Assembly (NCBI RefSeq): GCF_006739205.1
Contig: NZ_AP019720.1
Coordinates: forward strand, 1,240,001-1,304,000
Reading direction: 5' to 3'
DNA from: Streptococcus mutans
GTDB lineage: Bacteria > Bacillota > Bacilli > Lactobacillales > Streptococcaceae
DNA: 64,000 nt
Part shown: piece by piece, positions 5,252 through 60,030 of the stretch
Position numbering within the stretch: position 1 is the stretch's first letter
Layout: each line of letters opens with the position of its first letter
Position numbers and translations under genes: made by a program
The notes under the pieces: model-generated
Told to the model about the DNA's origin: nothing
Database searches by the model: none
What the model saw: only the letters and a program-made list of their open reading frames with translations

Positions 5252-5275
5252 AGAATGCCTTTCTGTACAAAAATA

Positions 5276-5385
5276 AGAAAAAATCTCCTCATACAAGGAG
5301 ATTTCACAAAATATAAGTACAGTTTTTCCTGCACTTTTTTCTTTGTCGCTCCTTGCCTGCCTCACGGGACAGTGTTAAAGGAATA
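5276..5385 (-). promoter_or_regulatory. PyrR-binding leader and intrinsic terminator (pyr attenuator)
   Basis: On the minus strand the leader reads AACACTGTCCCGTGAGGCAG and goes on to GGCAAGGAGCGACAAAG. This matches the conserved PyrR-binding loop with its CCNGNGAGG core. About 35 nt later a 9-bp stem (5281-5289 with 5296-5304, loop 5290-5295) is followed by a T-run and ends about 25 nt before the pyrR start. That is a classical transcription attenuator. Confidence 0.9.
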
Positions 5386-11861: not shown

Positions 11862-11987
11862 GATGCACCTCCTATAAGTTTTTGTTTGAGGAAATTCCTC
11901 CGTGAAGACTCGCCTAAATCGTGAGCTACGAAAGCTGCTTAAAAGCGATTTTCGTGCGGTTGCACAGGATGTGCATATAGTCAACTT
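11862..11987 (-). ncRNA. L21 leader-type structured 5' UTR
   Basis: Untranslated sequence between the promoter and rplU. It holds a GCACATCCTGTGC hairpin, a second long imperfect stem (AAATCGC ... pairing with GATTTAGGCG) and a GGAGGAATTTCCTC hairpin near the ribosome binding site. Firmicute rplU operons carry the Rfam L21 leader, bound by L21 for autoregulation. Assignment is by position and hairpins only. Confidence 0.65.
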
Positions 11988-56909: not shown

Positions 56910-57649
56910 TGACTGACCTAAAAATTGATGTTCAGGATTTACATAAATCCTTTGGTAAAAATGAAGTCCTCAAAGGGATTGACGTCCAATTTAACGAGGG
57001 AGATGTGGTGTGCATCATCGGTCCTTCAGGATCAGGAAAATCAACTTTTCTTCGGACCTTGAATCTCCTTGAAACAGTCACTAGCGGCAAGGTTATTGTA
57101 GATGGTTATGAATTGTCAGATCCATCGACCAATGTTGACAAGGCACGAGAAAATATCGGTATGGTCTTCCAACACTTTAATCTTTTCCCACATATGACTG
57201 TTCTTGATAATGTCACTTTTGCTCCTATCGAACTTGGCAGAGAATCCAAGGAAGAAGCACAAAAGCATGGCATGGAACTTTTAGAAAAAGTTGGACTTTC
57301 GGATAAAGCCCAAGCCTATCCTAACAGCCTTTCTGGCGGCCAAAAACAACGTGTTGCCATTGCACGCAGCTTAGCCATGAACCCAGATATCATGCTTTTC
57401 GATGAGCCAACTTCTGCCCTTGACCCTGAAATGGTTGGCGATGTTCTCAACGTTATGAAAGACCTAGCTGAGCAAGGTATGACTATGCTTATCGTAACAC
57501 ACGAAATGGGTTTTGCCCGCAAAGTGGCCAACCGTGTGATTTTCACTGATGGCGGTCAATTTCTTGAGGATGGCTCACCCGAAGAAATCTTTGATAACCC
57601 ACAGCACCCACGTCTCAAAGACTTCCTGGATAAAGTGTTGAATGTCTAA
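56909..57649 (+). CDS. glnQ: Glutamine ABC transporter ATPase
   Basis: 246 aa. Walker [13 protein letters not shown]-loop [12 protein letters not shown], signature [15 protein letters not shown], Walker [19 protein letters not shown]-loop VTHEMGFA. Drives GlnP. Translationally coupled to glnP. Both share the promoter with the GlnR box. Confidence 0.97.
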
Positions 57650-57665
57650 CGTGTTAAGTTTATCT

Positions 57666-57884
57666 GTGACTAAAGTCACTAGCTAAACTACGCAAAGTCC
57701 TATAAGACTTTGCTAAACACCTTACTAGTAAAAGCTCTCACTTAATATCGAACTGAGAGCTTTTACGTCGGAACTTTTTAAATCAATTTTTTATATCTCT
57801 AACTGTCAATGTTTGCCACTATTGTGGACTGACTTGCACCCTTACTAAGTTAAAAAGCAAGACATTATCGGTCTTGCTTTTTAA
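57666..57884 (+). terminator. Cluster of four hairpins after glnQ
   Basis: GTGAC/GTCAC (57666-57679), GCAAAGTC/GACTTTGC (57692-57713), an 11-bp stem AAAAGCTCTCA/TGAGAGCTTTT (57730-57764) and a 14-bp stem TTAAAAAGCAAGAC/GTCTTGCTTTTTAA (57850-57884). The last two look like terminators; the first two have no T-run. Confidence 0.7.
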
Positions 57885-57983
57885 CTGTCGGAACTGTTTT
57901 TATAAACTAAAATCCGTGTTCCTACATATTATGTAAAATTTTATGGAATTTTGCTGATACCAATCAGAAAACTCACTCTTTTC

Positions 57984-58012
57984 TTGCACTTTCTTTTAAA
58001 TATTGGTACACT
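57984..58012 (+). promoter_or_regulatory. Promoter of the ABC-F gene leader
   Basis: TTGCAC (57984-57989), 17-bp spacer, TACACT (58007-58012). It starts transcription near 58020, about 285 nt before the ABC-F start codon. Confidence 0.75.
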
Positions 58013-58027
58013 AAGAACAAATCATTT

Positions 58028-58278
58028 GGAGGTAAGGTGCATTGAAAAACTAAAATTCTTCATATTGGATTACTTTATCTAGAAGAATTTTTTGTGTGCA
58101 CCAAAATCTGAAAAACTGCAACTAATACTTAACGAAAATCAAAGTGAGACTAGGCGACAAACCACAGGCAGTACTAAAAGTGATGTCAATGACCTGTTAT
58201 CTTAATTTTCAAAAGGTATAGACTACTGCTATTTTTGATGACATAAAAGAAGCCCTACTAGATAAAGTAGCGGTTTTT
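58028..58278 (+). promoter_or_regulatory. Structured leader with tiny ORF and attenuator before the ABC-F gene
   Basis: GGAGG (58028-58032) is 9 nt before TTG AAA AAC TAA (58042-58053), a three-codon ORF. This ORF is buried in a stem: GGTGCA (58036-58041) with TGCACC (58097-58102), and AAAATTCTT (58053-58061 region) with AAGAATTTT (58083-58091). Further on, GCCCTACT/AGTAGCGGT with a bulge (58252-58274) is followed by TTTTTATT, an intrinsic terminator 28 nt before the start codon. ACTGCTA (58225-58231) could pair with the terminator arm instead. Together this has the form of ribosome-mediated attenuation. Confidence 0.65.
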
Positions 58279-58305
58279 ATTGTTTGAAAAAGAAAGGCAG
58301 ATTCT

Positions 58306-59811
58306 ATGTTACAGATTCAAAATCTTACCATTACGCACCAGAAAGATCTACAAATACTCGTTAAAGATTTGTCCTTAGTCGTCAATTCTGGTGAGAAATT
58401 AGCTATTATCGGGGAGGAAGGGACCGGTAAGTCTACTCTCCTCAAGACTATACTCAGCCCTGAGTTGATTGGCAACTACGCTGATGTGACAGGTACTATT
58501 CAGAATAGTTTTAACCGAATCGGTTACTTGCCACAAAACATGGAAGATAAAGATTTAACTCTAACCATTAAAAACTATATTTACCATGATATAGATTTTG
58601 ACCATTTTGATTTTAATCTTTTTTATCAAATGGCAGAGCGTTTTCAGTTTGACAGTCAGCGATTTGACGACGATGTCCAGATCATTTCTAGTCTTTCTGG
58701 CGGAGAGAAATTAAAACTGCAGCTGCTGAAAATGCTTGCCTACAATCCTGACTTACTTCTTTTTGATGAGCCTTCTAGTGACTTGGATCTGGACACAATG
58801 ACTTGGTTGGAGCATTTTATCAGTCAGACAGACAAAACCATTATTTTCATTTCTCATGATGAAGCACTACTTAGGAAATGTGCTACTGCTATCCTTCATT
58901 TGGAATTGCTCAAGAAACGCCAAAAGCCCCGCGCCAGCTATTTCCAAGGAAACTATAAGAACTACAAAAGTTGGCGAAAGAATAGCTTTAATAAGCAGCT
59001 TCAAGTCGCGCAAAAAGAACGTGAGGAACATACCAAAAAAATGGCACGCCACCACCACATTCATCAGAGTGTGGAACATCAACTGCGCAACACCAAAAAT
59101 GATGTTGCAGGTCGGCTGCTGGCCAAGAAAATGAAAAATGTCCTGTCTCAGGGAAAACGCTATGCCAAGGAGGTCAAAAACTTCACGGAAATTCCGCAGG
59201 ATATGGATGCTATTAACCTCTTTTTCACGAAAGTTAAATCTTTGCCTGCCAACAAAGTTCTACTGCATTGGGAAAATCGTTCTTTGCCGACAGGACAAGT
59301 AATTAATTTTGACATTCGCGGTCAGGATAAGCTGGTTATCACAGGACAAAATGGAATTGGCAAAACGCGCCTGCTTAAAGAGGTTCTTACCGAGTTAACC
59401 ACAAAATCAGATCTATCTATCTGTTATATGCCACAAAACTACGAAGAGTTGCTGGATGGTAAGCTGTCTGCTCTGCAATTTCTCAAAGAAAGTGCGGGCG
59501 AAGAATCTTGCCGTAATCTTCTAGCTAGTCTCCAATTCACACGAGATGAAATCACGTATCCTGTCAGCTATTTATCAGGTGGTCAGAAGGCTAAACTCTT
59601 TTTAGCTCAAATGGTCTTGGAAAGCAGCAATGTCCTGCTGCTGGACGAGCCAACTCGCCACTTTTCACCAACCAGTCAGCCTCTTATTCGACAGCTTTTC
59701 AAGAATTTTCCGAGTTGCATTGTCAGCGTATCGCACGATAGACAATTTATAGATGAAGTCGTTAATAAACACTACAAATTAAATCAAACAGAATTAGTGA
59801 ATCTAGACTAA
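58306..59811 (+). CDS. ABC-F protein (ribosome-protection type)
   Basis: 501 aa, two ABC domains and no membrane segments. Domain 1: Walker A GEEGTGKS at 36-43, signature LSGGEKLKLQLLK, Walker B LLLFDEPSSDLDLDT. Linker about 215-290 is basic and His-rich (KKMARHHHIHQSVEHQLRN). Domain 2: GQNGIGKT, LSGGQKAKLFLAQM, VLLLDEPTRHFSPTS. Linker and size match Vga/Lsa/Msr-type ABC-F factors that displace antibiotics from the ribosome, rather than the longer EttA/Uup group. A dedicated attenuated leader supports that. Drug class cannot be told. Confidence 0.85.
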   Translation: MLQIQNLTITHQKDLQILVKDLSLVVNSGEKLAIIGEEGTGKSTLLKTILSPELIGNYADVTGTIQNSFNRIGYLPQNMEDKDLTLTIKNYIYHDIDFDHFDFNLFYQMAERFQFDSQRFDDDVQIISSLSGGEKLKLQLLKMLAYNPDLLLFDEPSSDLDLDTMTWLEHFISQTDKTIIFISHDEALLRKCATAILHLELLKKRQKPRASYFQGNYKNYKSWRKNSFNKQLQVAQKEREEHTKKMARHHHIHQSVEHQLRNTKNDVAGRLLAKKMKNVLSQGKRYAKEVKNFTEIPQDMDAINLFFTKVKSLPANKVLLHWENRSLPTGQVINFDIRGQDKLVITGQNGIGKTRLLKEVLTELTTKSDLSICYMPQNYEELLDGKLSALQFLKESAGEESCRNLLASLQFTRDEITYPVSYLSGGQKAKLFLAQMVLESSNVLLLDEPTRHFSPTSQPLIRQLFKNFPSCIVSVSHDRQFIDEVVNKHYKLNQTELVNLD

Positions 59812-59847: not shown

Positions 59848-60030
59848 CTAAGTCGTTTCAGATGGTTTAACTTCTTCTTTCTCCTTAGCCAATTTTTCTC
59901 GTTCCAAGCGTAATTTGCGATTAGGATTGAGCTTATTGAAAAGTTTCTCCAATTTTTCAGCATTCCAAACATCGGCAGCCGAAACAAAATTACCATCTTT
60001 ATCTTTAAAAGATATGGGTTTATCTCCCAT
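59848..60030 (-). CDS. Small conserved protein, unknown
   Basis: 60 aa, MGDKPISFKDKDGNFVSAAD then a charged helix (AEKLEKLFNKLNP, LEREKLAKEKEE). Perfect AGGAGG five bases before the ATG, so it is almost certainly translated. No known domain recognised. Convergent with the ABC-F gene; about 300 bp downstream of obg on the same strand. Confidence 0.75.
   Translation of the reverse strand: MGDKPISFKDKDGNFVSAADVWNAEKLEKLFNKLNPNRKLRLEREKLAKEKEEVKPSETT

Follow-up and report, generated by a model that had tools for sequence, protein, structure and literature searches.

In Streptococcus mutans, an ABC-F gene very probably has a leader in which ribosome stalling controls transcription attenuation, as is known from vmlR and lmo0919, and the most useful result of our analysis is that a catalogued small RNA family appears to be the product of such an attenuator leader. 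The leader lies in the 64,000-nucleotide stretch of DNA that we analysed (the window), which belongs to a genome of 2,018,796 bases. What comes directly from computation is the anatomy and conservation of the leader, the covariation seen in the terminator and the antiterminator, and the prediction of a switch. A first-pass annotation of the same DNA had likened the three-codon upstream open reading frame (uORF) before an ABC-F gene to the attenuator of lmo0919; conservation, covariation and constrained folding support an assignment to the ribosome-stall attenuators of the lmo0919 and vmlR kind, but not the strand that had been proposed as antiterminator.

Features of the leader and of the gene downstream of it (positions in the window)
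Feature	Positions	Strand	Basis
Promoter-like site TTGCAC-17-TACACT, TGn before the -10	57984–58012	+	Sequence; 7/12 to consensus
Shine-Dalgarno site of the uORF, GGAGGT	58028–58033	+	Read from the sequence
Hairpin 1, putative anti-antiterminator; uORF in its base, antiterminator strand in its apex	58036–58102	+	Folds; weak covariation
Three-codon uORF TTG AAA AAC TAA (fMet-Lys-Asn)	58042–58053	+	Sequence; conservation in the genus
Antiterminator, 5' side (core 58071–58082)	58071–58106	+	Inverted repeat; fold under ribosome block; covariation
Degenerate BOX-like mobile repeat between the antiterminator strands	58122–58222 (approximate)	+	Inverted ends; similar repeats in the genus
Antiterminator, 3' side (core 58258–58269, also terminator 5' arm and loop)	58233–58269	+	Inverted repeat; covariation; fold
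Intrinsic terminator with one bulged base (U-tract 58274–58278)	58248–58278	+	Fold; covariation in relatives
ABC-F gene, 501 aa, putatively regulated	58306–59811	+	Two ABC domains; homologues across the genus

Nine bases separate GGAGG from the TTG start codon of the uORF at 58042, and both the strong ribosome site and the TTG-AAA-AAC-TAA frame are present as first annotated. An overlapping uORF, GTG-CAT-TGA (58037–58045), was disfavoured because no more than 4 nt lie between GGAGG and its start and because relatives have ATG at the position of the TTG. The site upstream had been called a consensus promoter; it is promoter-like and has a TGn, but it is not a consensus one, its two hexamers matching at three and four of the 12 consensus positions, and a promoter scan of 57640–58400 did not report it. 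In one relative (L077), TTGACA-17-TATAGT was read at the position equivalent to this promoter. As to the claim that the uORF is placed in a stem, it does lie inside hairpin 1, but mostly in an internal loop between stems of 7 bp and 10 bp.

The region around hairpin 1 (58018–58120) folds better than 200 of 200 shuffles (z −3.0), and for the terminator region (58190–58310) 2 of 200 shuffles were as good (z −2.9); the fold of the whole leader had a z of −2.2, with 6 of its shuffles as good. The terminator stem is composed of CTACT/AGTAG and AGAAGCC/GGTTTTT with one bulged C, and the end of its T-run at 58278 is 27 nt from the ABC-F gene, which bears out the bulged terminator noted previously. 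A generic terminator scan of 57640–58400 reported none, probably because of the bulge. In three leaders of our set (L091, L093, L094), the uORF starts with TTG, hairpin 1 is far longer, and the antiterminator strand has only a tentative position.

Within 58020–58305, the longest inverted repeat is that of 58071–58098 with 58242–58269, and in its core TACTTTATCTAG and CTAGATAAAGTA pair perfectly over 12 bp. Of the two strands of this helix, the 5' one is located in the apex of hairpin 1, and the 3' one coincides with the 5' arm and loop of the terminator. Covariation and constrained folds point to a model in which the antiterminator can coexist with neither the uORF hairpin nor the terminator. 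The first-pass annotation had placed the antiterminator at 58225–58231, where seven bases are complementary to 58268–58274; this placement has next to no probability, as the two segments pair with a probability ≤0.001 whether or not a ribosome block is imposed and nothing ties the strand to the uORF.

For covariation we used an alignment of 11 sequences, comprising leaders without BOX inserts; a second alignment (A2), which had misplaced rows, was not used for pair counts. In the antiterminator, 94.7% of 132 cells were paired and 6 of the 12 pairs had changed on both sides in at least one sequence. For four of the five measures, the observed value was reached by none of 500 shuffles; for the fifth, which counts further pair types, it was reached by 415 of 500. 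Antiterminator versions slid out of register had 22–40% of cells paired, a comparison in which the structure was taken from one of the aligned sequences and was thus favoured over the slid versions. In the terminator, 88.1% of 143 cells were paired and 4 of 13 pairs had changed on both sides, a count reached by 37 of 500 shuffles. For hairpin 1 the values were 71.8% of 216 cells and 2 of 20 pairs, and since 205 of 500 shuffles equal this pair count, we regard hairpin 1 as conserved rather than proven.

The antiterminator was also recovered when its two strands were defined independently of each other, in 98 of 125 leaders (the 27 dropped had no strand at +24 to +40). In 49 distinct pairs, the strands paired at a mean of 9.7 of 11 positions, compared to 7.8 for the same strands against the terminators of other leader classes and 6.2 against shuffled ones; foreign terminators were as good as the native one in a median of 3% and a mean of 12% of cases. 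The average includes L067 and L070, for which the finder picked a wrong hairpin (6 and 5.5 of 11) though both contain CTAGATAAAG. A first, cruder swap control with 56 representatives, in which some terminators were truncated and some leaders wrongly anchored, gave native, foreign and shuffled means of 20.5, 15.6 and 13.4; it was weak, with foreign terminators as good in a median of 15% and a mean of 27% of cases and 17% of shuffles as good. Across the leaders there were 69 distinct best helices, not all of them convincing.

We modelled a ribosome on the uORF as a block that forbids pairing from −15 to about +16 around the start codon, in equilibrium folds of finished transcripts, whereas the real competition is co-transcriptional. 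With this block, the probability of the antiterminator in the window leader rose from 0.00 to 0.88, while that of the terminator fell from 0.68 to 0.01. The outcome depended on the downstream edge of the block, the antiterminator probability being 0.07 at +12, 0.41 at +14 and 0.84 at +16, and this threshold between +12 and +16 agrees with the +16 toeprint reported for vmlR. In a test set of 40 leaders, one per distinct helix and selected for a helix score ≥20, the block raised the antiterminator by more than 0.02 in 26 and lowered it in none, bringing it above 0.1 in 24 and above 0.5 in 18. None of 190 equally sized blocks elsewhere in the spacer gave an antiterminator above 0.1. The remaining 14 of the 40 leaders, all of them chosen for a good helix, did not switch in the equilibrium model.

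From this we propose a mechanism in which stalling and readthrough are what we infer. In the off state, ribosomes would quickly finish the three-codon uORF, hairpin 1 would form and sequester 58071–58082, the terminator would form in turn, and RNA polymerase would halt 27 nt short of the ABC-F gene. In the on state, a drug that arrests ribosomes at initiation or directly after it would keep one of them on the uORF, and the footprint of this ribosome, extending to about +16, would mask the 5' arm of hairpin 1. The released segment 58071–58082 could then pair with the 5' arm and loop of the terminator, no terminator would form, and the ABC-F gene would be transcribed. By analogy with VmlR, the drugs are probably pleuromutilins, lincosamides and streptogramin A.

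The same uORF and terminator might act on a different signal, a general slowdown of translation (starvation, shortage of initiator tRNA or initiation factors, cold) that involves no specific drug class. A uORF of two elongation codons would mainly report initiation, and VmlR is, according to the accessible text of PMC9226507, also induced by translation defects. We nevertheless consider this reading improbable, as the downstream gene encodes an ABC-F protein resembling ribosome-protection factors and as the known relatives respond to the drugs that their factor counters (PMC9226507, PMC10201436, both as far as the accessible text goes). The resemblance is to the generic NCBIfam model of ribosomal-protection ABC-F proteins, which the protein matches with 295 bits, under the cut-off of 380. 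It did not reach the cut-off of any of the named resistance ABC-F families (Vga, Sal, Msr, Lsa, OptrA, CplR), nor of any other among the 25 NCBIfam families listed; scores against cut-offs were 217/725 bits for Vga, 197.5/725 for Sal and 157/750 for Lsa.

Homologues of the ABC-F protein at E ≤ 1e-80 are present in 252 of 284 Streptococcus genomes, and the nearest relative among the genomes searched has 91% of the protein in common. Directly 3' of the gene, a convergent ORF of 60 aa without a Pfam match (MGDKPISF..., 59848–60030, minus strand) is found, and a very similar one lies downstream of the ABC-F gene in several relatives (e.g. L068, L069, L078). Between the terminator and the ABC-F gene, some relatives have an ORF of 48–49 aa (MKHL...HPGHTNQHSKPIISHN.GNR type; L075:1327–1473, same place in L074 and L078). 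A scan of the window with Rfam at gathering scores gave two matches, a PyrR binding site (5274–5385, minus strand) and a ribosomal protein L21 leader (11896–11971, minus strand), both of them ordinary matches; as they lie elsewhere, we rejected a known Rfam riboswitch or leader at this site.

From the 252 genomes we chose 130 upstream regions by similarity (30 loci and 100 further regions, some lower-similarity rows being omitted) and searched them for a Shine-Dalgarno site followed by a short uORF. A strict pattern, which requires GGAGG, three codons and an A in the middle of the third codon and which was defined after the uORFs had been seen, occurred in 103 of the 130 regions, in 0 of 520 dinucleotide-preserving shuffles and on 0 of 130 antisense strands. 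A loose pattern occurred in 125 regions, compared to 27 of 520 shuffles and 11 of 130 antisense strands. The uORF has three codons in 108 of the 125 leaders that possess one, although the selection score favours three codons and ATG. Of the 125 uORFs, 51 encode MNN, 28 MKN and 6 LKN as in the window, and the others encode variants or longer peptides such as MDNNK and MYKKSIA; in all there were 28 distinct uORF sequences. These leader counts are not independent of each other, because many of the species are closely related. The first-pass annotation had suggested looking for the leader in other streptococci, and there the mini-ORF is conserved and the terminator covaries.

Most of the leader is shared with S. 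orisasini and S. devriesei, at 89% and 85% identity. The patterns found no uORF in 5 of the 130 regions (L079, L146, L152, L157, L170), one of which (L152) ends at a contig end. Outside the genus, none of 10 orthologues from the same order had a uORF by pattern, and none of 16 homologues from clostridial genomes, Lachnospiraceae and Oscillospiraceae among them, had one of three codons; both searches could miss diverged forms.

The spacer between the two antiterminator strands holds, in the window, a repeat that has inverted ends and resembles repeats dispersed in other streptococci. We take it to be a degenerate BOX-like mobile element. In its own genome it matched only itself at E ≤ 0.01, which makes an old remnant likely. 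The same spacer contains a different insert in L077 and L081, in opposite orientation by eye, which is missing from L073 and L076; a third, BOX-like insert is present in L178, L182 and L192 and absent from L183 and L189. In the window, the insert forms an identical hairpin in both predicted states and may thus simply ride in the loop of the antiterminator. The name and module layout of BOX elements find support in the accessible part of PMC3049150.

Of ten loci searched permissively with Rfam, four gave a match to the family RF02436, 'Streptococcus sRNA SpF43', and at two of these the match exceeded the gathering score. Across the genus, 163 of 284 genomes match this family, 125 of them above the cut-off, and none of 14 control genomes does. 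In the relatives, the matches span the homologous leader from its Shine-Dalgarno site over the uORF to hairpin 1; in mitis- and pneumococcus-like relatives, SpF43 is the 5' part of this leader. The genome of the window has no match at E ≤ 1e-3, and the window leader itself none at E ≤ 0.1. In a few genomes, an additional weak antisense match is found at the same place.

The corresponding RNA of S. pneumoniae, F43, is described in the accessible text of PMC3395615 as a 99-nt RNA between SP1281 and SP1282, all on one strand and confirmed by Northern blot, and that of PMC4243769 gives SP_1282 the name ABC transporter ATP-binding protein. The first-pass annotation had taken the leader to be undescribed; its pneumococcal counterpart is catalogued as F43 (PMC3395615; RF02436), but the accessible part of that paper does not recognise it as an attenuator, and among open-licence papers we found no report of the streptococcal leader as one. 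PMC6212727 annotates 29 RNA switches in D39V, and section 28 of that paper makes no mention of this leader. A 2025 survey lists M52 (F43/Spd_sr63) as a putative sRNA in 385 genomes with synteny kept, the cis-regulators it removed being M8 and M12 (PMC12323649, accessible part). Two further records touch this locus: a spontaneous base change in a clinical pneumococcus 61 bp upstream of SP_1282, by distance inside this leader (PMC4243769, accessible part), and a table entry that assigns the amino-acid change Y31C to 'SpF43_sRNA', which looks like a transfer of the Rfam label to a coding feature (PMC6336424, accessible part).

The 99 nt of F43 stop just after hairpin 1 and not at the terminator. 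In L178, a T-rich stretch follows hairpin 1 directly, near the reported 3' end of F43, and hairpin 1 of this group could itself stop or pause RNA polymerase. The catalogued pneumococcal sRNA family appears to be the off-state product of this leader. Alternatively, the 5' part could be a free-standing sRNA acting on other mRNAs, with the ABC-F gene downstream only incidentally; this is how Rfam types RF02436, the 99-nt RNA was after all seen on a Northern blot (PMC3395615), and the 2025 survey retains M52 as a putative sRNA (PMC12323649), the papers again as far as accessible. We hold this to be very unlikely for three reasons: in all 50 genomes compared (from the matches listed in both searches), the RF02436 match is on the strand of the ABC-F gene, 115–286 nt upstream of it; the match contains a uORF that looks translated; and the strand in its apex covaries with a terminator that is not part of the sRNA.

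Returning to the attenuator, we lean, with some reserve, towards a broader picture in which the genus has inherited a drug-sensing leader on one chromosomal ABC-F gene. In this picture SpF43 would be the off-state product of the leader and not a trans-acting RNA, and BOX-type repeats would have entered the spacer at least twice, probably three times, to be carried as a self-folding domain in the antiterminator. If this is true, uORF-based drug sensing reaches a chromosomal ABC-F gene that 252 of the 284 Streptococcus genomes possess, and what has been deleted, and put in target surveys as possibly trans-acting, under the name of a catalogued small RNA is a leader. Dozens of natural variants would then be at hand for studying the way in which RNA folding reads a ribosome footprint of ~16 nt.

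Among known systems, RF02436/F43 has in common with the homologous leader the Shine-Dalgarno site, the uORF and hairpin 1; it differs in being catalogued as an sRNA and in leaving the window leader unmatched. The leader of msrD, described as streptococcal, also controls an ABC-F gene by ribosome-mediated transcription attenuation, but there the stalling depends on macrolides and acts via the nascent leader peptide, and msrD shares its operon with a gene for macrolide efflux (PMC10314930, accessible part). In Listeria, lmo0919/rli53 has a uORF and a premature termination before an ABC-F gene that is relieved by lincomycin, a likeness that we draw from its description in the accessible part of PMC11550727 and not from sequence. 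Short uORFs also precede the chromosomal ABC-F genes cplR, vmlR2 and lsaA, with a terminator and a 5' hairpin in the case of cplR as well, but their consensus uORFs are other ones, MR[I/M], MK[L/Q] and MAGN (PMC10201436, in the accessible text of which the string 'streptococc' does not occur).

The closest comparison is with vmlR of Bacillus subtilis, whose leader has a tripeptide uORF (MIN), a stem-loop SL-1 that acts as anti-antiterminator and a 30S toeprint 16 nt past the start, with the uORF variants MDN and MDK functional and MRK less so (PMC9226507, accessible part). The uORFs of our leaders are MNN, MKN or LKN instead of MIN, and the likeness that we draw is one of architecture; further, a BOX-like repeat makes up the apical domain of the window leader, and the ABC-F protein scores below the cut-off of the named resistance families. 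As far as the accessible description of vmlR goes, both leaders have a three-codon uORF within a 5' anti-antiterminator hairpin, a terminator before a chromosomal ABC-F gene, an antiterminator freed by a ribosome at initiation (here by prediction), and an extra hairpin at the apex of the antiterminator.
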